Assembly: GCA_016177925.1 (NCBI GenBank)
Contig: JACOUH010000133.1
Location: 1 to 64,000 of the forward strand
DNA length: 64,000 nt
Reading direction: 5' to 3'
DNA from: Planctomycetota bacterium
GTDB taxonomy: Bacteria > Planctomycetota > Planctomycetia > Gemmatales > Gemmataceae
Shown here: one piece after another, positions 2,994 through 58,918 of the stretch
Layout of the letters: every line of letters begins with the position of its first letter
Numbering within the stretch: position 1 is the stretch's first letter
Made by a program: the position numbers and the translations under genes
Notes under the pieces: model-generated
Database searches by the model: none
What the model was told of the DNA's origin: nothing
What the model saw: only the letters and a program-made list of their open reading frames with translations

Positions 2994-3521
2994 ATGAGCA
3001 CGACCCCGGGGGACTCACGCGAGCAGCGTTTCGATTCGCTGGAGCAGGAAGCGTTCCTGAACCTCTGGCGGACGTACGACCGCATGCGCGCCATCGAGCA
3101 GGACTTGTTCGGGCGCTACGACCTGACGCCACAGCAGTACAACGCGCTGCGGCTGCTGCGGGCGGCACGACAGCGGCTCGGCGGCAAGTGGCCGGGACGG
3201 TTGGCAACGCTCGACCTGGCTTCGCGTCTCGTGTCGCGCGCCCCCGACATTACGCGCCTGCTCGACCCGTTAGAGCGACGCGGCCTGGTCGAGCGCGACC
3301 GTCCTGCCCACAACCGCCGTGTCGTCTGTGTCGGCATCACGGAGGCTGGCCTGGACCTACTGCGGGAGTTGGGCGAGCAGGTCCGCGCCTGTCACGCCCG
3401 TCAGTTCGGCCACCTGTCGGAGAAAGAACTGCGCGACCTGATCGTCCTGCTCCGCGCCGCCCGTCGACCGCACGAGGAGCCGGACAGCGCCTGGCTCGAC
3501 TCCGGCGAGCGGGGGGTGTGA
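2994..3521 (+). CDS. MarR-family transcriptional regulator
   Basis: A 175-residue winged-helix DNA-binding protein. The pattern is that of MarR: an N-terminal dimerisation helix (EAFLNLWRTYDRMRAIEQDL), LTPQQYNALRLLR, a recognition region (DLASRLVSRAPDITRLLDPL), then the wing (ERRGLVERDRPAHNRRVVCV) and a C-terminal helix. The ligand is unknown. Its last residues (GERGV) and its TGA stop are encoded by the left arm of a 61-bp palindrome (3504-3564), so the natural C-terminus was probably replaced when the palindrome arrived; the hairpin may also end transcription. It lies directly downstream of the GH38-like gene and upstream of two YfhO-type membrane proteins, which it might control. Confidence 0.85.
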   Translation: MSTTPGDSREQRFDSLEQEAFLNLWRTYDRMRAIEQDLFGRYDLTPQQYNALRLLRAARQRLGGKWPGRLATLDLASRLVSRAPDITRLLDPLERRGLVERDRPAHNRRVVCVGITEAGLDLLRELGEQVRACHARQFGHLSEKELRDLIVLLRAARRPHEEPDSAWLDSGERGV

Positions 3522-3564
3522 ACCCCCCGGTAAGCTACCGGGGGGTTCACACCCCCCGCTCGCC
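3504..3564. repeat. 61-bp dispersed palindrome, GGCGAGCGGGGGGTGTGAAC family
   Basis: Near-perfect inverted repeat with arms of about 28 bp around TAAGCT. The same arm begins the palindromes at 40506-40590 and, in degraded form, lies at 11985-12015. It supplies the stop codon of the MarR gene and can form a strong hairpin. Confidence 0.9.
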
Positions 3565-3652
3565 GGGCGGCTACGAGTCGCCCGCGGGACGTTTCCCCGA
3601 TAACATCAGAGGAGGGGCGCCCATTGGAAACGCCGCTGCGGAGAGGCTCGCC

Positions 3653-6058
3653 GTGCTGTCTCGCTGGGGCCCCGTACTGGTCCTGACGCTCCTCGCCCTG
3701 CTCTACTTTTTCCCCCTCGTTTTCCACCCGACGCAGGTCCTCTACGGCGAGGCGTCCGACCTCCTGGCGGAACACATCCCCTCGAAACGCTTCGTGGTGC
3801 GCTCGTTCCACGAGACCGGCGAGTTGCCGCTGTGGTGTCCGTGGCAGTTTGCGGGGACACCCGTCGTACATGACATCCAGCAAGCCCTCTTCTACCCGCC
3901 GCACTTCGTCTTCCTGGTGCTGTCGGAGGAGTGGGTCGGCCCTGTCGTCAGCTGGCTCATCGTCCTGCACGTCCTGCTCGCTGGCCTGCTGATGTTCGTC
4001 TACGTTCGCCACCGCGGACTTCTCCCGTTCCCGGCCACGGTCGCCGCGGCCGGCTACATGTTCGCGGGGCGATGGATGCTGCACCTGCTCGGCGGAGGGC
4101 ACTACATCACGATCGGCCTCGCCTGGCTGCCCCTCGTCCTGCTCTGCCTCGACCGCGCCATCCAGCGCGGCAGTCTACTCTGGGCCACCTGGGCGGGACT
4201 GGTATTTGCCCTGCTCGTCCTTTGTACGCAGCCGCAGTGGACCTTCTACGCGGGCCTGTTCGCGACATTCTCCACCCTCGGCACGGCCCTGGAGGAAGCG
4301 GGCTACCTCAATGGGACGGGGGAGCGCAGCCGTGGCCGAACGGCGCGGGCACTGGGGCGCTGGCTGGGTTTCGGCGCCTGGGCCGTGGGCCTTGCGGTTG
4401 CGCTCGCCGCGGTCCAGCTGCTGCCGACGCTCGAGGCCGCGCGCCACTCCACCCGCGCCGGCGGCGTGGCCCCCGAGGACCCCTACGAGAGCCTGCGCAC
4501 TCTCCTCTTCCTCGTCGGCCCCTCCCTTTTCGGACAGGGCCCCTACCTGATGTGGGAGGACCGCGGCGGACTCACCCTGCTCTGGGCGATCGCCGCCGTG
4601 CTCGCGCCTCTGCTCCGCGGTGGACAGGTTCGCTACCAGGCTGGCCTGTGCGCCGGCATGCTCCTGCTCGCCGTCTTCGGCGCGTTCGCCGGCCGTTGGC
4701 TGCCGGTCTTCAACCTGTTCCGCCAGCACCCGCGCATCCTCGTGGTCGCTTCGCTGCCGATCGCTTACCTCGTCGGCGTCACTACGCAGGCCCTCTTCGT
4801 CGACGCGCCCTCGCCACGACGGCGACGCCTTTGCTTCCGCGTCACGCTGGGACTCGGCGTCCTCGCCTTGCTCGCGACGGCCAGCTTCGTCGTGGCGCGT
4901 CTTGTTCGCGCTGAGGATCTGCGTTTCGATGTCTACTGGGTCTTCATGCCGGTCTTCTTCGTTCTGGCCCTGTGGCTGCTCCGCCCCGACCCGGTGGGGG
5001 AGGCTTCCAGCCTGCCGGAAAAAGGCAGGCTGGAAGCCTCCCCCACGGGACTGCGGCGGGCGCTGCCGTGGGCCGTTCTGCTATTGGCCGACCTGTGGGC
5101 GCTGACCTGGCCGCTGGTCGAAGTACGGCCGGAGGGGGAACTCTTTCGAGCCCCGGTCTCCATTCGCTACCTCGTTGACCACCGTCACAAGGGGCGCGTG
5201 ATGGACATCGAGTACCTGGACGAGGGTTCTCCCCTCGGCCAGGGAGCGCCTGCGGCGCTACTGCTCGACCTCCAGGCGGTGCGGGGTTTCAACCCCATCG
5301 ATGTCCGCTACTACCGCGAGTACCTGGCCTTCATCGCCGACGTGGGGCGGCCTCTCCGCGCGCTTGAGAGTGCGGTCACCCACCCCCTCCCGCTCTCCTT
5401 CCCCCTCGAGAATCGCCGGCTGCTCGATCTGCTCGGCGTCCGCTACCTGCTTCACCCCAGCGCTACGTCCCCGCCAGGCGACCGCTGGCAGGAGAAGGTC
5501 GTGGACAAGGCCCCCCTGGGCTACAGCCTCGTCGTCGGCGGGCTGGTTACTTTGCCTTCTTACACGATCTCCGAAAACCTGGATGTGTTCCCGCGTGCCT
5601 TCGTCGTACCGCGTGCCCGTCCGCTGCCTCCCCGCCTCGAGGTGCTGCACGCCATGAAGACCACCAATTTCAGGGAGATCGTCCTCCTCGACGGGTACGA
5701 CGGCACCGACGAAGCACTCTCCACCTCCGGGTTCCATCCCGCCGACATCCGCCGTTACGAGCCCAACCGCGTCGAGCTGGAAGTCCGTGGAGCGCCCGGC
5801 TTCCTGGTGCTGACCGACGTCTGGTATCCCGGCTGGACCGCCACGGTCGACGGCGAGCCGGTCGAGATCTATCGTGCCAACCACGCGTTCCGCGCCGTCG
5901 CCGTGTCGGCGGGGACGCACACGGTCGTCTTCCGGTTCGAGCCAGCCCCGTACTTTTTGGGCCGTCGCATCAGTCTCGTAGCGCTGGCGGCGGTGGCCGT
6001 GCTGCTCTTGATCCTGACGGCTTGCGCAACGTGGCGCCGTTCTCGTGCCGGGTCGTGA
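3653..6058 (+). CDS. YfhO-type multi-spanning membrane protein (copy 1)
   Basis: About 801 residues with a dozen or so hydrophobic helices and a C-terminal extracytoplasmic domain. YfhO-family hallmarks are visible: ELPLWCPWQFAGTPVVHD near the N-terminus, GGGHYITIGLAWLPLVLLCL, and the C-terminal block FLVLTDVWYPGWTATVDGEP followed by AGTHTVVFRFEPAPYFLGRR. Members are thought to act in cell-envelope glycosylation; the substrate here is unknown. The open frame runs back to 2969, but that part crosses the MarR gene. The GTG at 3653 has GGAGAGG six bases upstream; an ATT at 3623 behind AGGAGGGG is a rarer alternative. A 53-bp palindrome (4994-5046) adds about 18 residues (VGEASSLPEKGRLEASPT) absent from the sister copy. 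TGATG overlap with copy 2. Confidence 0.85.
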   Translation: MLSRWGPVLVLTLLALLYFFPLVFHPTQVLYGEASDLLAEHIPSKRFVVRSFHETGELPLWCPWQFAGTPVVHDIQQALFYPPHFVFLVLSEEWVGPVVSWLIVLHVLLAGLLMFVYVRHRGLLPFPATVAAAGYMFAGRWMLHLLGGGHYITIGLAWLPLVLLCLDRAIQRGSLLWATWAGLVFALLVLCTQPQWTFYAGLFATFSTLGTALEEAGYLNGTGERSRGRTARALGRWLGFGAWAVGLAVALAAVQLLPTLEAARHSTRAGGVAPEDPYESLRTLLFLVGPSLFGQGPYLMWEDRGGLTLLWAIAAVLAPLLRGGQVRYQAGLCAGMLLLAVFGAFAGRWLPVFNLFRQHPRILVVASLPIAYLVGVTTQALFVDAPSPRRRRLCFRVTLGLGVLALLATASFVVARLVRAEDLRFDVYWVFMPVFFVLALWLLRPDPVGEASSLPEKGRLEASPTGLRRALPWAVLLLADLWALTWPLVEVRPEGELFRAPVSIRYLVDHRHKGRVMDIEYLDEGSPLGQGAPAALLLDLQAVRGFNPIDVRYYREYLAFIADVGRPLRALESAVTHPLPLSFPLENRRLLDLLGVRYLLHPSATSPPGDRWQEKVVDKAPLGYSLVVGGLVTLPSYTISENLDVFPRAFVVPRARPLPPRLEVLHAMKTTNFREIVLLDGYDGTDEALSTSGFHPADIRRYEPNRVELEVRGAPGFLVLTDVWYPGWTATVDGEPVEIYRANHAFRAVAVSAGTHTVVFRFEPAPYFLGRRISLVALAAVAVLLLILTACATWRRSRAGS
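4994..5046. repeat. 53-bp palindrome inserted in frame in YfhO copy 1
   Basis: Arms of 23 bp (GTGGGGGAGGCTTCCAGCCT onward) around GGAAAAA. Aligning the two YfhO paralogues leaves this stretch as an unmatched block in copy 1 between ALWLLRPDP and LRRALPWAVLL, so it is an insertion. It reads open in the host frame. Confidence 0.92.
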
Positions 6059-6072
6059 TGGAGGCGCTGACC

Positions 6073-8454
6073 ATGTCGGCCACCGTTCGCGTGCTGCTCA
6101 TCCTCCCTGTGATGACGGTCTCCTTCTTCTCCCCCTTGGTGTACCACCCGGGACAGGTCCTTTACTCCGACCACTCGGACCTGTTGGCGGAGCACATCCC
6201 GGCGAAGCGGTTCCTGGTGCGGTCGTTCCAGGAGACAGGGGAATTGCCCTTATGGTGTCCGTGGCAGTTCGCCGGCACGCCGTTCGTCCATGACATCCAG
6301 GTGGCCATGTTCTACCCGCCGCACCTCGCCCTGTTGCTGGTGCCCGAGGACCAGGTCAGCTTCGCCGTCAGCTGGCTGGTTGTCCTCCACGTCCTGCTCG
6401 CCGGTTGGGCCATGTTCGCCTACACCTGCCACCGCGGCCTCTCTCCGCTCGGCGGAGCGGTCGCCGCGGTCGGCTACATGTTCGCCGGGCGCTGGATGAT
6501 GCACTTGCTGGGCGGGGGCCACTACATCACGATCGGCCTCGCCTGGCTGCCGCTCGTCCTGCTTTGTTTGGAGCGGGCCATCCGGTTGGGGAGTGTCGCC
6601 TGGGCCGTCGGAGCGGGGACCGCCTTCGCGCTGCTCACCCTCGCTACACAGCCGCAGTGGACCTTCTACGCGGGCCTGTTCGCCGCGGCGTGGACACTCG
6701 GCACGGTCCTCGAGGAGGCGAGCTTCCACGGTGGGACAAGGCGCGGGCTGCTGTGCTGGGCGGGGTACGGAGCGCTGGCCGTGGGACTGGCGCTGGCTCT
6801 GACTGCGATCCAGTTGCTGCCGACCCTCGAGGCAGCGGGGCAGTCGAGCCGCGCGGGCGGTGTCGGGACGGAGGCGATCCTCGAAGGTGGAGTGCGTGTC
6901 GTCCTCTTCCTCGTCGGCCCCGCCCTGACGGTCGAGCCCGCCAATCTGATGTGGGAGGACCGCGGCGGCCTAGCCCTGCTGTGGCTGTGTGCCGCCGTGC
7001 TCGCCCCGGTCCTCCGGAGCGGCCGGGTGCGCTACGAGGCGGCGGTCGGCGTCGGGCTGTTCTTGTTCGCCGCGGGTGGGGCGGTGCTGCTGCAACCGTT
7101 GCCCGGCTTCAACCTCTTCCGCCAGCCGGCCCGCATGATGGTGATCGCCTCCTTCCCGGTCGCCTGGCTCGCCGGTGTCTCGGCCCAGGCGCTGTTTCCC
7201 CCCGGCGGGCTGTCCGTGGAACAGCGGCGGCGCTGCCGCCGCTGGATGCTGCGCGTCGGCGCCGCGACCCTGCTGCTGTGCGGGGGCTTTGCCCTGCGCC
7301 AGCTCCTGCAAGGAGCGCCGCTCCGCTTCGACTTCTACTGGCTGTCGGCCCCCCTCCTGTTCGGTCTGGCGTTCCACCTGCTCGGTCGGGGGAGCCGCCC
7401 TTTCCTGCGCTGCCCGCCGGCGGCCGTCTGGGTGTTCCTGCTGGGGTTGGACCTGCTGGCGCTGGATAGTTCGCTGATCGGTGTGTGGCCCGAGCCAGAA
7501 CTCTACGACGTGCCACGGTGCGTGCGCTTCGTCGCCGAGAGGAGTGACGACCGGAGCCGAGTCCTGGAGGTGAACAACCAGGACGGGGGAGGACAGGCAG
7601 GGCCCCTGTGGACCGGCGCTGCGATGGCGCTAATCGGGCAGGTAGAAGCGGTGCGTGGCTACAGTCCGCTCGACGTGCTGCGTTATCGAGAGTTCCTGCA
7701 ATTCATCGCCGATCGCGACGACGCACTCGGCGCCCTGGACAGCACCTTTACCCACCCAGTGAGCGATAATTCCGATTTGAAAAATCGTTCTCTGCTGGAC
7801 CTGCTCGGTGTCCGCTACCTACTGCTGCCGGTCGGTGTAGATCCCCCAGGAGTCGGTTGGAAGGAGGTCAGCCGGCAGGATGAAGTCACCGTCTACGACT
7901 TCATCCTCGGCGGCTGGTGGAACGTGGGCGGGTACGTCGTCCACGAGAACGCGGCCGTCCTGCCCCGGGCGTTCGTCGTCCCTCATGCCGAGGGATTGCC
8001 GGAGGGGCCGGCCGTCCTGAGGACACTGAAGACAACGGACTTCCACCAGACGGTCCTGCTGGAGGACTACGATCCGCCCGCCGGGGCACCCGTGCCAGCG
8101 GGTCGCGGGGGCCAGCCGGGCACGGGGCACACGGTCCAGGTCCACTGCTACGAACCCAACCGCGTTGAGATGGAGGTGAAGGGCGCGGGTGGCTTCCTGG
8201 TGCTGACCGACGTCTGGTATCCCGGCTGGACCGCCACGGTCGACGGCGAGACGGTGCGCGCGTACCGGGCGAACTATGTCTTCCGGGCGGTCGAGGTGTC
8301 GGCCGGCCGGCACGAGGTGATCTTTCGTTTCGAGCCGGCCTCCTACCGGCGCGGCCGGCTGATGAGCCTGGGGACGCTCGCGGCGGTCGGGTTATTCGGA
8401 GTTGTCGTGCTGGTCCGGCGGCTTCGCTCGCGTTTTGGGGAGCGGGGGACGTGA
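6073..8454 (+). CDS. YfhO-type multi-spanning membrane protein (copy 2)
   Basis: About 793 residues, clearly a tandem duplicate of the preceding gene: the same SDLLAEHIPAKRFLVRSF, ELPLWCPWQFAGTPFVHD, GGGHYITIGLAWLPLVLLCL and FLVLTDVWYPGWTATVDGE blocks in the same order. The ATG at 6073 has GGAGG eight bases upstream; an ATG at 6058 overlaps the previous stop (TGATG) and is also possible. The two genes are surely co-transcribed. The substrate is unknown; polyprenyl-sugar-dependent envelope glycosylation is what is proposed for the family. Copy 2 lacks the palindrome seen in copy 1, which makes the pair a natural insertion/no-insertion comparison. Confidence 0.85.
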   Translation: MSATVRVLLILPVMTVSFFSPLVYHPGQVLYSDHSDLLAEHIPAKRFLVRSFQETGELPLWCPWQFAGTPFVHDIQVAMFYPPHLALLLVPEDQVSFAVSWLVVLHVLLAGWAMFAYTCHRGLSPLGGAVAAVGYMFAGRWMMHLLGGGHYITIGLAWLPLVLLCLERAIRLGSVAWAVGAGTAFALLTLATQPQWTFYAGLFAAAWTLGTVLEEASFHGGTRRGLLCWAGYGALAVGLALALTAIQLLPTLEAAGQSSRAGGVGTEAILEGGVRVVLFLVGPALTVEPANLMWEDRGGLALLWLCAAVLAPVLRSGRVRYEAAVGVGLFLFAAGGAVLLQPLPGFNLFRQPARMMVIASFPVAWLAGVSAQALFPPGGLSVEQRRRCRRWMLRVGAATLLLCGGFALRQLLQGAPLRFDFYWLSAPLLFGLAFHLLGRGSRPFLRCPPAAVWVFLLGLDLLALDSSLIGVWPEPELYDVPRCVRFVAERSDDRSRVLEVNNQDGGGQAGPLWTGAAMALIGQVEAVRGYSPLDVLRYREFLQFIADRDDALGALDSTFTHPVSDNSDLKNRSLLDLLGVRYLLLPVGVDPPGVGWKEVSRQDEVTVYDFILGGWWNVGGYVVHENAAVLPRAFVVPHAEGLPEGPAVLRTLKTTDFHQTVLLEDYDPPAGAPVPAGRGGQPGTGHTVQVHCYEPNRVEMEVKGAGGFLVLTDVWYPGWTATVDGETVRAYRANYVFRAVEVSAGRHEVIFRFEPASYRRGRLMSLGTLAAVGLFGVVVLVRRLRSRFGERGT

Positions 8455-36911: not shown

Positions 36912-36965
36912 GTGGGGCAGGCATCTTGCCTGCCTCTGTCGTGGCAGGCTAGAAGCCTGCCCCAC
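36912..36965. repeat. 54-bp palindrome, GTGGGGCAGGC family
   Basis: Imperfect arms (GTGGGGCAGGCATCTTGCCT and GGCAGGCTAGAAGCCTGCCC plus CAC) in the gap between the first two genes of the redox operon. Confidence 0.88.
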
Positions 36966-51428: not shown

Positions 51429-54400
51429 TCAGTCCCAGCGCTTGATCTCCTCGAGCAGGTGCAGCACGTCGTTGCGGCGCTTCTCGAACAGGGCAAACAG
51501 CGCCAGGATCGCGCTGCCCAGGACGATCCCCGACACGTACCACACCCACGTCTGCGTGCGGTCGACCGCCGCGTGCCAGATCATGGCGAAGACGTCCAGG
51601 CACAGGAACGTCAGTCCCATGAACAGGAACGCCCGCACCCGCAGCTGGATGCCCGCCAGCACGCCGAGGACCGACAGCACCGCCAGCACCACCGGCCACA
51701 CCGCCGAATTGCCGACGCCGGCGATGAACAGGTCCGCGGTCGACGACACGTACAGCATGCTCAGCCCGACGTAGCGAAGCGTCAAGCTCTGCTCGCGGCT
51801 GAGCCGGTCCCGGTTGATCTGCTCCGACACGAGCACAATCAGCGCCAGCGGAATGAGCCACATCTGCGGGTGAAGCAGGAACGCGACGTCGAAGTGCAGC
51901 AGCAGCGTCCACAGGCCGAAGTTAGCCGCCAGCGCCGCCAGCAACGCGTAACGGAACGACCGCCGCGACAGGGCGACCAGGATGTACAGGACACTCAGCA
52001 GGAACCACAACAGCGAGTGCCGGTCGTAAGCCGGCGGCAGCTTGCGGAGGTAGTCCAGCAAGGGAGCCAGGCCGGGCGCGGCGCTCTCGGCGGCGTGCGT
52101 CAGGGCCAGCGGCGGGCGCAGCCAGAAGACCAGGATCGGCAGCAGCGGCAGGAACAGGCCGGTCCGCTGCAGGGGGCCCGCCAGCACGCGCAGCCCGCGG
52201 CGCTGGAAGAGTTCGCCCAGGCCGACGCCGACGTACGCCAGAGCCATCACCAGCAGCGTCCAGTATTTCGCGCCCCACTCTCCGAACAGCCCCGGTACAT
52301 TCAGCTTGAGGTGGACGAACAGCAGCACCAGCAGCAACTCGCTCCCGTAGACGTAGAGCGTCCGCCCGTGGGGCAGGTTGCCAACCTGCCTGGGAGAAGA
52401 AGGCAGGTTGGCAACCTGCCCCACGGCGGAGCGAAGGGCGAGGACGATGAGCGCCACAACGGCGAGGACTACCAGCAGCACTTCCAGGACGGTCAGGGGC
52501 GTCTGCTTGCTCACCTTGTCGTAGAGCAGAAACTCCTGGCCGAGTAGTACCAGAAGGACCAGCGGCGCGAGGGCGGCGAGGACCGCGGACGTGCGGACGA
52601 AACAGCCCTGCCAGGCACTCGCCGGCGGGAGCAATCGCCCGAGAAGATCGCGATACGCCACGGCCAGCAGCGTCAGCACGGTCAGGCACGCGGCGCTATG
52701 ATGCAGCCAGCCGGACGCCCCCGGCGCGAGCGGCACCCAGCTCGCCTCGACGCAGCCCACAACGCCCAGGACGAGCGCCGCGTAGCGCAGTTCCGTGACC
52801 CACCGCGGCGGCGCCCGGTCCGCCAGGAAGAAGCACGCGGGCAGGAGCAGGGCGACGGCGACGGGGCCGGCTACACGTCCGCCGGCAGTGGCGAACGACA
52901 GGCACACCCACAGGCTCACGGTCAGGGCGATGCTGGCGAGCGCGGCGACCGTGTGGCGGAACCAGTCGCGCGGGGGCTCCTCATAGAGGCTTGTGGGGAG
53001 TCGGAGGGTTCGCAGAAGGTCGGACAGCCGGGGGACGGCCCAGGCAGCCGCCGTGGTCAGGACGAGGTAACCGGCCAGCGTCAGGCAGGCGGCACGGACA
53101 AACTCCGTGGCGCCCAGCGGCAATGCTTGCAGCAACAACGCGGCGGCCAGCAGCCCCGCGGCGAACAGACCGGCCGGGGCAAACCGCGCCTCCCGATCCC
53201 ACAGGGCCGCGCCCAGGGCCGCCACCGTCAGCAGCAGGGCCGCCCATGCCAGCGCGCCGCCGGCCCGGAAGCTCTCTTCCGCAAAGACCGCTGCGACACC
53301 GGACGCGACCACCGCGCCGACCACCCCCAACGCCAGCCGCACGGCCACGTGCTGGAAGGAGAGCGAGAGCCCCCGGACACGGAAGGGTGGGACGCGCCCC
53401 GACAGCAGGTCCACCAGCGTCCAGGCGAGCGCGCCGAGGGCGAGCGACAGGGCGACGGTCAGGGCCAGCGTGTCCGGCGTGCCTGTGCCCCACGCGACCC
53501 AGACAAGGACACCCGCCAGAGTGAGCAAGATTCCGGAGAGGTAAACGTATCGTTGCTGGCGCAGGCCCAGCGCCAGCCCGGCCGCCATCAGCATCGCCAC
53601 ACACACGGGGCCAGCAGAGGCATACGGGCGAAGCGGGTCGTCCAAGCCGACGCGCAATCCCAGCAGGACCAGTGCCAGCCCAAGTCCCACCGCCCAGTGC
53701 CGCAGGGCAGGCATCGACCACAAGCGGGCGCGGACATCCGTGGCCGCGCGCCGGGCCTGCTCGCGGAGTGCCAGCAGGGCCCGGATGGTTGCCGCAGAGC
53801 CGAGTATGCCCCAGCAGACCGTCAGGACGTGGTAGGGCAACCACCCCGTCGACCAGCGGTTCGCCACGCACGCCGCCAGTACGCCGAGCGAAAGACAGCC
53901 GGTTCCCAGGGCGCTGACGAAGAGTCGCGGCACCCGGCGGGCGCTGAACCAGAGCGCGGCCACGGTCGCGAGCAGGCACGCAGCCCAGCCGATAGGCTCG
54001 CCGAAGCGCGACAAGTGAATCGCCAGCGGGTGACCCGGGGCGAGCACCAGCGCCATCAGCGGGACCGACAGCAGCAGAGCGTTGCCGGCGAGGCCCGCCA
54101 GGGACTGGACACCCAGCAGAGGGATTTTCTCCCTGTGCCAGGACTCCCACACGGAGAAGCGCCGGTCCGCCAGCAGCCAGAGCAGGGCGACCGCGGCAGA
54201 CGCGAGGACGTTGGCCTGGACGAGGACGATCCACAGGCCCGGATTCGCCAGACCCTCCAGGTGGCAGACAGCGAGAGAGGCCGCCAGGTTGACGCCGAAT
54301 CCCGCCGTGAACGCCCAGCGCTCCCGCCGCAGCCAGAAGGCCATGCACGCCCCCGCCGCACTGGCCAGCCCGACCGTCCCTGACGCCCACAGCCAGTCGC

Positions 54401-57400
54401 CGTGAACGAACGCGGCCTTCAGGGCGAGCAGGACCGCCGACAGGCCGAGGCCCGCCACCCAGGCGGACGCCGTCTCCGCCGGCGGGAATGGCGCAAGCAC
54501 GCGGAGCCGCAAGGGCCGGCGTTCGATGAATTGACCCAGCGACCAGAGCAGCGCCTGCCCGGCCAACCCCAGCAGGAAGACGCGGTAGCCCCAGCCGGGG
54601 AAGAGACGCTCGGCGGTGCAGCCGAGCAACCCGGCCGTCACAGCGCCGCCCAGCCCGACACCGTGCCAAGACAGGCATTCGCCCCGTCGCACAAGCCGCA
54701 GAGGTGGGGCGGTCAGTGCGGCGAGCAGGGCCAGCCAGCCGAGCAGGGAGCCGGTTTCCGTCGTCAGCGGTCCCGGCTCACGGGCTGGCGCGGCCAGGAC
54801 CAGCGGAACCAGGCCCAGGCAGAGGACGAGGGCAATCCCGCCGAGTGCCAGGCCGAGCTGGGCGAGCATCAGCGGTCGGGCCGTCTTCGTGGCCGGCATC
54901 TCGCGCCAGGCAGATGTCCACGGGTAGGCGAGCAGCCATGCCAGCGCCCACAGCCCAGCCGCCAGGCTGCCCAGCTGCACAAGGCGCACCGATTGCACCT
55001 CGTCGAGGCGGCCGCCGCCCGTCACCACGGCCAGGGCGTAGCCTCCCACCAGGGCGACGTTCGCCACCAGCCCGCCCGAGAAGGCGTAGCCAGGCGAGCG
55101 CTCGCGCAAGGCGTGTCCGACCAGCCCGAGACAGAGCAAGGCGAGAGGCGTCACGTTACTCGCCACCCAGCCCAGCCGGCGGAACAACGATCCGACGGCG
55201 GGGCCCGATGGGCTCTCTCCCGCGAAACCCAGCGCGGCAACCACTGCGGTCAACAGCAGGACGGGAGCGACCGTGCCGCTGACCACGAGGGCGCGCGTCC
55301 AGCGGCTTACCGGCAGGGCCGTCGGCGCTTCGATGCCCAGCCGGCCCGCCAAGCGTCCGGCCGGCTCGCGCAACCAGAGCAGCGCCGAACAGGCGAGCAG
55401 CGCCAGGCCGAGTCCCCAGCGCACGGCCGTCGCCGTCGCCAACTCGCCGTCCCAGCGGGCCGCCGCGAGGACAGGGACCGTCAGCGCCACGGTCGCCAGG
55501 CCGAGTACGCCGAGCGCGATGCGGTCCCACAGCGTTGCCACCAGCACGAACGCCAGCACGCCGAGGAGCAGCCAGCCGCCGGGGCCTGCGGCGACTCCCC
55601 CGGCGTCGACATCGAGAGGCAGCCCGCGTGGAGTCAACTCGCGCACGATCCCCGGCCACGTCTCCCCGACTGCCAGGACAAGCTGACCGAGTACCACCCC
55701 GGCCAGCACCAGCCGGTCCCACGCCGGCCACGGCGGTTCCAGGAGCGGACGAGCCCGCTCCTGACCACGCAGCGCCAGCCGCAGCCCGACCCACACCAAC
55801 CCGAGCAGCCCCAGCCCCACTCCAAGGGCCTGCAGCGTGCGCGGGTCGCCCAGATCGGCCGGCCCGGTGCCCCACGGCTGGGCCTCGACCCAGCCCGCGG
55901 CGGCCAGCAGCGCTGCCGTACTGAGGGCCGCCTGGAAGGCGGTGAACCACCCCGGCGAGGACTCCATGCAGGAGAACGCCAGCCAGAGCACGGCCAGCCA
56001 CGTCACGTAGCCAGCCAGGACAAGGGGCTCTCCCCATGCGGACGCTCCCATGACTGGAATGCTGATCAGAGAGGTCAGCAAGCCCGCCCGCCCGAGCGGG
56101 CCTCGGAACAGCATATCGATCCGGTCAGGATTCGTGGGGCAGGTTGCCAACCTGCCTGGGAGAAGAGGCAGGTTGGCAACCTGCCCCACGAAGGCGAGAA
56201 ACAGCCGCGCGAGCATCAGGAGGGTTACATGTCCGAGCAAGGCCACCAGCCCGGGGCGCGCGACCCACCCCTCGGGAATGTCCCACACCAGTGCGTGGGT
56301 CAGCCCGGCCCAGAGGAACGCGGCGCCGACCCAGGTGCCGAAGGACCAGCCGTTGACCCACACCAGGAGCCAGGTCGCTGCCGCGAGGATGAACACGGTC
56401 AGCGTGTGACCGGTGCCTTCGGGGAAACCCGGGGCGGACAGGTCGAATAGCAGCGCCAGGGACCCGGCGACCCAAGCGAGGTCGTGACAGGGGGCTGTCA
56501 GCACCTCGTAGCGACAGGCGGCTCGCCTGTCGGGCTGTCGGACTGGGACAGCCGAGCCGGCTGTCCCTACGAGCCCGTGCCACACGGCCAGCGCCGCCAG
56601 GCCCAGCGCCTCGAGGGCCAGCACTACTCCCCACAAGGGCGGTCGCCCCGGCCAGCCCGCGAGCAGTGCCCACAGCGTCGCGGTGAGGAACAGCCCCTGC
56701 CCGGCATAGCTCAGGCTGATGCGCTGCCAGCGCACGTTCGCCAGCAGGGCCGTGACCGCGTACAGCCCACAGACGAGAGCTGCCCGTCCCGGCTCCGAGA
56801 GGCCCTCCGCGCTCACCAGCCAGAGGCTCAGCCCGGCCACCGCGGCGCTCCCCAGCGCCTGGGCGACCGCGTGCTCGCGAAGTCCCCTGCGGGCCAGCAG
56901 TTCAGCCGTCCCGCTCAGCAGCACCACGAGTACCGCCAGGACCGCACCGCTCGCGCCCGAGAAGAGTTCCGCCGCCAGCCTCACGCCGTCTCCGCGCGAC
57001 AGGGCCAGGTTGCCCACGGCGAGGTGGAAGGCGGTCAGGGAGCCCAGGACGAGGCACGGCAGGGCGGCGGCGTGCGCGAGCGGCATGTGCTGGCGGAAGG
57101 CGAGGTAGGTCAGCACCGCCGCGTCGACGGCGCAGACGGCCAGGAGCACGCCCGGGTCAGGCCAGGCCAACGTCACGGCCCCGAGCAGGACTAACATCCC
57201 GGCCAGGGCGACAGCCGTGGACACGGTCCGCAGTCCGCCCAGCGAGGGACTCTCGTCTCCGAAATGGGAGGGCGAGGCTCCTGCCGAGTCGGCAATCGGC
57301 TCGGCAGGAGCCTCGCCCTCCCCTCCGAGGCGTCGTTGCAGCAGCAGCCCGGCCGACAGGACCGGCACGCCGGACACAGCCAGCGGCAGCGCCAGGTACT

Positions 57401-58757
57401 GGAGGGCTATCCGCATGTCGGCGGCCCGAGACAGGAGGAAGCCCAGGGGGACCGCCAGCGCGAACGTACACAGCCCGAGGAAGAGCAGGATGCGATAAAC
57501 CTCTCCCTCGCCGAGCGCTTCGTGGGGCAGGTTGCTAACCTGCCTGGGAGAAGAGGCAGGTTGAAAACCTGCCCCACGAAGAAGGCGGAGGCGCCATCCG
57601 ATCGCCGTCAGCTGACAGCCGACCGCCAGGCAGGCCGGCAGGGCGAAGAGCCACGCGCCAGGTGGGTCGGGAAGACGCGGCACCAGAAGCTGCGTCGACG
57701 CGGCCCCCGCCACGCCGAGCGCCAGCAACCAGCGCGCCCTGGCCGCGAGCACGCGCCCCGCGCTGGCGACCACGGCCACGGACAGCATCAGGCCTGCCGC
57801 CATCGTCGCCGTCTCGGCCAGTCCTCCTTCCCGGCCGCGCAAGCGTCCGGCCAGCACCAGCAGATTGAGCGGAATCAGCAGCGTGGCGATGACCAGCAGG
57901 CCGCGGCTGGTCGACTCCAGTTTCCAGTGGTGCAGCGTGTAGTGGCCAGCCCCGAACAGGGCGAGGGTGATGCTGGAGAAGACGACGAAGGGAAAATAGG
58001 GGATCTGCTCCAGTGTCTGCCAGAGTGTGATGACCAGGGCGACGGAGCAGCCGACGATCAGCAGCCCGCCGACCAACTCGCCCCAGAGGATGTTGCGCTC
58101 CTCCATGAACCCGGCCAGCACATCGGTCCAGGATCGCCGCGGCCGTGCGGGCATCGGGGGAGATGCCTCGACCGGCGTGGGGCAGGCTTCCAGCCTGCCT
58201 TGGCCTGGCAGGCTGGAAGCCTGCCCCACGGGAAGAGGATGGGCGGGAGGCGGAGGGGGCTTTTGCTCGGCCGATTCCAGCAGGGGGAGGGCGACGGGAA
58301 TTTCCTCGCGGGGCGTTTCTGGCAGTTCGGGCCGCACGGCATCCGCTCTTGCGACCTCGGAGGGTACGGGCTCCGCGCGTCGGGGCACGCGGGCGGGGGA
58401 CCTGGCGCGGCCCAGCAAGGTGTCGCGCCGGCGGGCAAGGCACCGCAGCAGCCGGCCTGCCGTTTCCTCGTCCAGGTCGCCCTGCCGCGCCAGCCGGTGA
58501 ACGTTGCGCTCGGTGACTTCCAGCTCGCGAAACTCGTCCGAGTCCGCGCCGCGGGCGAGGCCACAGTTCGGACAGACACGCATCCAGGACCGAAGCCGTT
58601 GCCCGCACTCGGCACAGGGCGCCGCCTGTTGAATCGTTCCCCGGCCGCCCTCTCCACCAAGCAGGCCACGAAAGAGCGTGCCGAACAACACCCACAGGCC
58701 GTGGCCCAGGAGGGTGATCAGCCCCACCACCAGCGCGAGGTAGAAGAGGATCTCCAC
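51429..58757 (-). CDS. Giant polytopic membrane protein with N-terminal zinc ribbon, carrying six palindrome insertions
   Basis: About 2442 residues. One hydrophobic helix, then a zinc ribbon (CAECGQRLRSWMRVCPNCG, about 45-65), a helical linker (NVHRLARQGDLDEETAGRLL), a Pro-rich part and dozens of hydrophobic helices to the C-terminus, with no known catalytic motif. GTG at 58757 is used because the first helix begins there; a TTG at 58778 is possible. The open frame is unbroken over 7.3 kb although six palindromes lie in it (58177, 57522, 57266, 56508, 56134, 52368). Leu/Ala/Gly bias and high GC match the neighbours. Function unknown; large repetitive membrane proteins of this type are found in planctomycetes. 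Confidence 0.85.
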   Translation of the reverse strand: MEILFYLALVVGLITLLGHGLWVLFGTLFRGLLGGEGGRGTIQQAAPCAECGQRLRSWMRVCPNCGLARGADSDEFRELEVTERNVHRLARQGDLDEETAGRLLRCLARRRDTLLGRARSPARVPRRAEPVPSEVARADAVRPELPETPREEIPVALPLLESAEQKPPPPPAHPLPVGQASSLPGQGRLEACPTPVEASPPMPARPRRSWTDVLAGFMEERNILWGELVGGLLIVGCSVALVITLWQTLEQIPYFPFVVFSSITLALFGAGHYTLHHWKLESTSRGLLVIATLLIPLNLLVLAGRLRGREGGLAETATMAAGLMLSVAVVASAGRVLAARARWLLALGVAGAASTQLLVPRLPDPPGAWLFALPACLAVGCQLTAIGWRLRLLRGAGFQPASSPRQVSNLPHEALGEGEVYRILLFLGLCTFALAVPLGFLLSRAADMRIALQYLALPLAVSGVPVLSAGLLLQRRLGGEGEAPAEPIADSAGASPSHFGDESPSLGGLRTVSTAVALAGMLVLLGAVTLAWPDPGVLLAVCAVDAAVLTYLAFRQHMPLAHAAALPCLVLGSLTAFHLAVGNLALSRGDGVRLAAELFSGASGAVLAVLVVLLSGTAELLARRGLREHAVAQALGSAAVAGLSLWLVSAEGLSEPGRAALVCGLYAVTALLANVRWQRISLSYAGQGLFLTATLWALLAGWPGRPPLWGVVLALEALGLAALAVWHGLVGTAGSAVPVRQPDRRAACRYEVLTAPCHDLAWVAGSLALLFDLSAPGFPEGTGHTLTVFILAAATWLLVWVNGWSFGTWVGAAFLWAGLTHALVWDIPEGWVARPGLVALLGHVTLLMLARLFLAFVGQVANLPLLPGRLATCPTNPDRIDMLFRGPLGRAGLLTSLISIPVMGASAWGEPLVLAGYVTWLAVLWLAFSCMESSPGWFTAFQAALSTAALLAAAGWVEAQPWGTGPADLGDPRTLQALGVGLGLLGLVWVGLRLALRGQERARPLLEPPWPAWDRLVLAGVVLGQLVLAVGETWPGIVRELTPRGLPLDVDAGGVAAGPGGWLLLGVLAFVLVATLWDRIALGVLGLATVALTVPVLAAARWDGELATATAVRWGLGLALLACSALLWLREPAGRLAGRLGIEAPTALPVSRWTRALVVSGTVAPVLLLTAVVAALGFAGESPSGPAVGSLFRRLGWVASNVTPLALLCLGLVGHALRERSPGYAFSGGLVANVALVGGYALAVVTGGGRLDEVQSVRLVQLGSLAAGLWALAWLLAYPWTSAWREMPATKTARPLMLAQLGLALGGIALVLCLGLVPLVLAAPAREPGPLTTETGSLLGWLALLAALTAPPLRLVRRGECLSWHGVGLGGAVTAGLLGCTAERLFPGWGYRVFLLGLAGQALLWSLGQFIERRPLRLRVLAPFPPAETASAWVAGLGLSAVLLALKAAFVHGDWLWASGTVGLASAAGACMAFWLRRERWAFTAGFGVNLAASLAVCHLEGLANPGLWIVLVQANVLASAAVALLWLLADRRFSVWESWHREKIPLLGVQSLAGLAGNALLLSVPLMALVLAPGHPLAIHLSRFGEPIGWAACLLATVAALWFSARRVPRLFVSALGTGCLSLGVLAACVANRWSTGWLPYHVLTVCWGILGSAATIRALLALREQARRAATDVRARLWSMPALRHWAVGLGLALVLLGLRVGLDDPLRPYASAGPVCVAMLMAAGLALGLRQQRYVYLSGILLTLAGVLVWVAWGTGTPDTLALTVALSLALGALAWTLVDLLSGRVPPFRVRGLSLSFQHVAVRLALGVVGAVVASGVAAVFAEESFRAGGALAWAALLLTVAALGAALWDREARFAPAGLFAAGLLAAALLLQALPLGATEFVRAACLTLAGYLVLTTAAAWAVPRLSDLLRTLRLPTSLYEEPPRDWFRHTVAALASIALTVSLWVCLSFATAGGRVAGPVAVALLLPACFFLADRAPPRWVTELRYAALVLGVVGCVEASWVPLAPGASGWLHHSAACLTVLTLLAVAYRDLLGRLLPPASAWQGCFVRTSAVLAALAPLVLLVLLGQEFLLYDKVSKQTPLTVLEVLLVVLAVVALIVLALRSAVGQVANLPSSPRQVGNLPHGRTLYVYGSELLLVLLFVHLKLNVPGLFGEWGAKYWTLLVMALAYVGVGLGELFQRRGLRVLAGPLQRTGLFLPLLPILVFWLRPPLALTHAAESAAPGLAPLLDYLRKLPPAYDRHSLLWFLLSVLYILVALSRRSFRYALLAALAANFGLWTLLLHFDVAFLLHPQMWLIPLALIVLVSEQINRDRLSREQSLTLRYVGLSMLYVSSTADLFIAGVGNSAVWPVVLAVLSVLGVLAGIQLRVRAFLFMGLTFLCLDVFAMIWHAAVDRTQTWVWYVSGIVLGSAILALFALFEKRRNDVLHLLEEIKRWD
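52368..52424. repeat. 57-bp in-frame palindrome (giant protein, copy 6)
   Basis: GTGGGGCAGGTTGCCAACCT plus GCC and mirror around TGGGAGAAGAA. Read as AVGQVANLPSSPRQVGNLPH on the minus strand. Confidence 0.92.
56134..56189. repeat. 56-bp in-frame palindrome (giant protein, copy 5)
   Basis: Same sequence as 52368-52424 with a shorter spacer (TGGGAGAAGA). Read in a different frame as FVGQVANLPLLPGRLATCPT. Confidence 0.92.
56508..56571. repeat. 64-bp in-frame palindrome (giant protein, copy 4)
   Basis: GTAGCGACAGGCGGCTCGCC plus TGTCGG facing GGGACAGCCGAGCCGGCTGT plus CCCTAC. Imperfect arms. Read as SAVPVRQPDRRAACRYE. Confidence 0.8.
57266..57322. repeat. 57-bp in-frame palindrome (giant protein, copy 3)
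   Basis: GGGAGGGCGAGGCTCCTGCC plus GAG, spacer TCGGCAATCGG, mirror. A family not seen elsewhere in the window. Read as GGEGEAPAEPIADSAGASPS. Confidence 0.9.
57522..57577. repeat. 56-bp in-frame palindrome (giant protein, copy 2)
   Basis: GTGGGGCAGGTTGCTAACCT plus GCC, spacer TGGGAGAAGA, right arm with two mismatches (GGCAGGTTGAAAACCTGCCC). Read as GAGFQPASSPRQVSNLPHEA with the flanks. Confidence 0.92.
58177..58229. repeat. 53-bp in-frame palindrome (giant protein, copy 1)
   Basis: GTGGGGCAGGCTTCCAGCCT plus GCC and perfect mirror around TTGGCCT. Read as VGQASSLPGQGRLEACPTPV. Nearly the same arms as 18438 and 4994. Confidence 0.92.
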
Positions 58758-58918
58758 GCGGCGGCCCTCGGACGGCAAGAAACGTGCCCCGCCACGGCCC
58801 TCCCGAGGCTGGCGGGATCGAAAGAATGATCCCGGCCCAGGAGAATTATTCCCGCCAGGGCACCGTGACTCCCCTCATGAAAGGCCCGCTGGGAGCAATC
58901 GCGTCACGGCCGCGCAAG

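Follow-up and report, generated by a model that had tools for sequence, protein, structure and literature searches.

Tandem YfhO genes and a palindrome in the first copy

The window, by which we mean the whole stretch of 64,000 nucleotides analysed here from a Planctomycetota bacterium, contains two tandem genes of the YfhO family on the forward strand: copy 1 at 3626–6058, for which the start codon is provisional, and copy 2 at 6058–8454, with a putative start codon at 6058. Both match Pfam family PF09586 and they can be aligned along their whole length at about 56% amino acid identity, which bears out the full-length alignment reported in a preliminary description of this locus. The same description drew attention to a 53 bp palindrome at 4994–5046 within copy 1, and this palindrome is real. 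It reads GTGGGGGAGGCTTCCAGCCTGCC-ggaaaaa-GGCAGGCTGGAAGCCTCCCCCAC, with two perfect 23 nt arms around a 7 nt spacer, and is translated in frame as VGEASSLPEKGRLEASPT within the open frame of the gene. When folded as single-stranded DNA, it reaches −32.5 kcal/mol against a mean of −9.9 kcal/mol for shuffled sequences (z = −11), so chance is excluded. An Rfam search of the window returned no match.

Its sequence identifies the palindrome as a REPIN, made up of a pair of 23 nt REPs in inverted orientation, each consisting of a GTGG tag, an 8 bp stem and a 3 nt loop. The left REP (4994–5016, plus strand) and the right REP (5024–5046, minus strand) are separated by a spacer (5017–5023) that differs between copies of the element. 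Relative to the genome-wide consensus, a single arm position differs, C7→G, and this change is present in both arms, where it introduces one mismatch into the 8 bp consensus stem. Each short hairpin is thereby disrupted, while the long hairpin stays intact.

The element belongs to a family with the traits of REPINs, namely a GTGG tag and hairpin, an inverted REP pair with a short spacer and many dispersed copies. Together, the sequence sampled and the sites fetched contain approximately 44 full copies of the form GTGGGGCAGGCTTCCAGCCTGCC-n-inverted, mostly 53 bp; the REPIN statistics cover about 0.75 Mb of the genome plus the copies listed by the search. The 53 bp sequence of the window matches this genome-wide family at about 93–95%, and both arms are perfect in 31 of 40 short copies. 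Among 120 sites picked by their left ten bases alone, GTGGGGCAGG, nearly all feature the complete hairpin, with compensatory changes at the inner two pairs of the stem (CT/AG, CA/TG, TT/AA and TC/GA). A comparison of 20 distinct REPs, three of which were picked for intact stems and so lean slightly towards pairing, showed that 94% of cells pair and that 15 cells are changed on both sides, compared with 4.2 in shuffles; none of 500 shuffles reached 15. GTAG-tagged REP families are also present in the same genome. Elsewhere in the window, a GTGG REPIN of 54 bp at 36912–36965 is not spanned by any long open reading frame.

Other palindromes occur alongside this family. Several REPINs (at loci L058, L061, L062, L064, L070 and L071) are centred in an outer palindrome, TTTCAAAAAC...GTTTTTGAAA, half of which is also present at a GTAGGTCAGGC-type REPIN (L157:11043); no unoccupied copies of the outer palindrome were found in about 0.75 Mb. 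In the window itself, a palindrome of another family (GGCGAGCGGGGGGTGTGAACCCCCCGGTA) at 3502–3566 overlaps the stop codon of a MarR-like gene (2994–3521), and a related palindrome flanks the RAYT at locus L013 on both sides.

REPINs in the loops of membrane proteins

Orthologues were collected by searching the copy 1 protein against relatives of the same family, order and class, of which the nearest is only 50% identical. In the resulting alignment, no insert is present at this place in the paralogue or in any orthologue but one, that of genome G036. Between a common Tyr anchor and a common Trp anchor lie 44 residues in copy 1, compared with 30 in copy 2, 25–29 in insert-free orthologues from family and order relatives, and 43 in the G036 orthologue, which carries an insert of its own. 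Against most orthologues, copy 1 has therefore a net gain of 15–19 residues. Copy 2 reads AFHLLGRGS-RPFLR-CPPAAVWVFLL at this spot, so that the five residues RPFLR face 19 residues (18 plus G) in copy 1 and the net gain over the paralogue is 14, rather than the 18 extra residues matching the palindrome exactly that had been described. For the same reason copy 2 is not a base-exact empty site, and its loop is too diverged, and different in length, to represent the pre-insertion state that it had been taken for. A search of genome contigs for close relatives gave two remote matches only and hence no base-exact empty site either.

The insertion may have comprised 54 nt, the 53 bp element together with one flanking base pair. 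Removal of a unit running from GTGG to CCAC plus one G would leave the earlier codons R-P-D-P-G-L-R, and copy 1 without these 54 nt has 26 residues between the anchors. This number falls in the orthologue range of 25–29, which makes a gain of 18 residues plausible, not proven. The proposal in the preliminary description that 53 plus 1 nucleotides restore the frame thus fits the copy at 4994–5046, but it fails for some of the other copies found inside genes.

Four of these other copies lie in frame in a single open reading frame of 2481 residues on the minus strand (51432–58874), which resembles a membrane protein and had no match in a Pfam search. A 57 bp GTGG REPIN of the TTGCCAA type (52368–52424) replaces a loop of 13–14 residues that is common to relatives, so that the net gain is limited to about 6 residues. 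A second TTGCCAA-type GTGG REPIN is located at 56134–56189, a 56 bp GTGG REPIN of the TTGCTAA type at 57522–57577 has a net gain of about 16 residues, and a 53 bp GTGG REPIN of the CTTCCAG type is located at 58177–58229. Outside the window, a 54 bp REPIN in an acyl-CoA carboxylase gene (L154:15803) adds 21 residues relative to orthologues with identities of up to 81%. Net gains at these other in-gene copies are thus not constant, ranging from about +6 to +21 residues, which indicates that entry was not always clean or that the loops have changed since.

The insert of the G036 orthologue (locus L026, G036:C239:16154-18784; a frame of 980 residues) lies in the same loop as that of copy 1. It is composed of GTGGGCCGCTCGCTCCGCGAGCGGC-n-GCCGACTCGCGGAGCGAGTCGGCCAC, its GTGG tag lying no more than about 4 nt from the aligned position, and belongs to a separate GTGG family that has dozens of matches in G036, including three further REPINs that stand one after another in the same gene, between residues 228 and 229. 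The G036 loop REPIN is best read as an independent entry into a tolerant loop, and it suggests that REPINs can enter membrane-protein loops repeatedly. Such repeated occupancy, at almost the same position and at a further site in the same gene, is what might be expected if the inserted peptide had been recruited for protein function, as a selected loop extension that is more than tolerated. We consider this very unlikely, as the length of the loop varies among orthologues (25–29 residues), REPINs land in many unrelated genes and the encoded peptide depends on the reading frame. Tolerance of the element in the loop of copy 1 is accordingly preferred. A broader proposition, that GTGG REPINs in this bacterial family act as recurrent frame-keeping loop cassettes, with entry at CC, a unit of about 54 nt and a loop filled independently in two genera, and that they shape loop evolution beyond mere tolerance, is doubtful at present.

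Flanking bases, a candidate transposase and related systems

The bases adjoining the elements were compared across 53 GTGG REPINs. The base at −1 is C in 44 of these and the base at +1 is G in an equal number (44/53); CC stands on the left at 42% of REPINs and GG on the right at 52%, compared with a window background of about 10%. None of 48 short copies lacks both the C at −1 and the G at +1, where about one would be expected, a difference that is not significant. The element at 4994–5046 is followed by GG, which reads CC on the opposite strand, and is preceded by G. In vitro, changing the tag from GTAG to GTGG shifted cleavage by TnpA_REP to CC (PMC8266576). Since GTGG directs cleavage to CC in that system, the REPIN flanks described here fit the guide rule, and a genome in which C precedes GTGG and CC is enriched as this rule predicts is suited to tests of target choice by RAYTs. 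The rule for the −1 base is not general over all GTAG and GTGG families: a link between the third tag base (A or G) and the preceding base (T or C) was considered for REP families as a whole and rejected, being partial and family-dependent.

The preliminary description had also anticipated a target duplication of one base or more. None was seen across the 53 GTGG REPINs, where identical flanks of 2–6 bases occur in 0–1 copies, about as often as in shuffles, and single-base identity of the flanks (10 copies, 8.4 expected) is not above chance.

A search of the genome for Y1_Tnp domains identified nine loci, and several of the RAYTs in the genome are flanked by palindromes of their own kind. The most relevant candidate, a protein of 237 residues encoded at G000:C349:10369-11079 (L144/L246), was found by a search with another RAYT. 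It matches NF047646, the REP-associated tyrosine transposase family, with 90.7 bits (cut-off 80), as well as the TnpA_REP structure PDB 4er8 (E = 2.9e-8). A GTGGGGCAGGTCGCTGACCTGCC REPIN is located at or just 5′ of its start, and the same REP forms an array 3′ of its stop. These flanking REPs have the GTGG tag and the outer stem GGCAGG/CCTGCC in common with the window element, and differ from it in the inner stem and loop, which read TCGCTGA at the RAYT and CTTCCAG in the window-type REP. The nearest relatives of this RAYT, in genomes of other genera (G026, G039, G021 and G030), lie next to GTGG REPs whose stems differ, and more distant RAYTs adjoin REPs with GTAG, GGAG and also GTGG tags. The assembly is 83% complete, and none of the RAYTs found has the exact CTTCCAG REP as its direct neighbour. 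The common tag and outer stem are consistent with the G000:C349 RAYT being the probable mover of the CTTCCAG subtype, including the window element.

RAYT domains were also observed within longer reading frames. At G020:C72 (L140:2705-6685), the frame of a DUF1156 methylase gene of 1326 residues includes a Y1_Tnp RAYT domain as well as REP arrays that are also read in frame, and a Y1_Tnp domain is present in an open frame of 1316 residues at G049:C2 (L253). A whole RAYT inserted in frame would be unusual.

An element that is short, dispersed and bounded by inverted repeats, with some copies inside longer outer palindromes, could in principle be a MITE of a DDE-type insertion sequence. This origin is very unlikely given that target duplication is not found in 53 copies, that the elements have a tag-plus-hairpin structure with compensatory stems and that a RAYT is flanked by REPs with the same tag and outer stem. 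The assignment as a REPIN also agrees with known systems. GTAG-type REPs were described in 2013 with Planctomycetes among their hosts, as were REPs inside open reading frames and inside other palindromes (Di Nocera, PMC3733652), and a 2018 study described subclasses of TnpA_REP with GT[AG]G REPs on their flanks (Quentin, PMC6006769). The GTAG superfamily likewise features a GT[AG]G tag, a hairpin, inverted pairs and a high copy number, and its RAYTs are flanked by cognate REPs, whereas here the flanking REPs have the same tag and outer stem. The window element further differs from these REPs in having its own sequence family, GTGGGGCAGG(N7)CCTGCC, for which no name appears in the consulted parts of the two papers, and in the many copies that lie in frame in long genes.

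The REPtron Sm of Stenotrophomonas maltophilia (PMC8266576) has the same geometry, with a 23 nt REP, a perfect 8 bp stem and a 3 nt loop; there the tag is GTAG and cleavage occurs at CT, whereas here the tag is GTGG and the flanks are CC, the predicted site. The Rickettsia palindromic elements are likewise described as lying in frame in many protein genes (PMC3733652); they belong to different bacteria, whereas the element here is linked to a candidate RAYT. The element at 4994–5046 is therefore a clear example of a known process and no new kind of element.

Order of duplication and insertion

A maximum likelihood tree placed YfhO copies 1 and 2 as sisters (support 95/93), adjoining the gene of G023 (support 97/95). 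Because the orthologues lack the insert and the two copies are sisters, the comparison supports a gain of the palindrome by copy 1 after the tandem duplication and disfavours a loss from copy 2. The state of the element points to the same order, as a near-pristine REPIN in genes that are only 56% alike is younger than the duplication that produced them. The preliminary description had proposed an insertion after the duplication, and this is upheld by the insert-free orthologues of other genera, the sister relationship and the approximately 44 near-identical copies in the genome.

Were copy 1 instead the old state, an ancestral palindromic segment would have been lost from copy 2 and the orthologues. 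The one observation in favour of this is that the G036 orthologue (L026) has a palindrome in that loop. According to the preliminary description, an insertion would be refuted if all single-copy orthologues carried the palindrome at this site; one was found in G036 only, where it represents a REPIN family that is distinct and independent and has many copies in that genome. The remaining orthologues are without any insert, and an element near-identical to about 44 copies elsewhere in the genome cannot match the age of genes that are 56% alike, which together make an ancestral palindrome highly improbable.

Collectively, we assign a probability of about 0.9 to the palindrome being a REPIN that was moved or copied by a RAYT, entered YfhO copy 1 after the duplication and has been tolerated in frame. 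As a non-autonomous element, the REPIN would be copied or moved by the RAYT (TnpA_REP), presumably as single-stranded DNA, and would have landed in a variable loop of copy 1 once the tandem pair existed. It may have survived there because its conserved part is free of stop codons and the frame was maintained by the net gain. With a paralogue, orthologues, a donor family and a candidate transposase all at hand, this entry of a REPIN into a coding gene is well resolved.

Template switching within the gene, which would have made the palindrome on the spot and is suggested by the same C7→G change in both arms, is refuted by the match of about 93–95% between the 53 bp sequence and the genome-wide family, as this indicates that the palindrome came from elsewhere; at most, template switching accounts for the paired change. 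The REPIN at L151:864 has a paired change too, at position 13, and the sequences of these two elements suggest that one arm may be corrected against the other.
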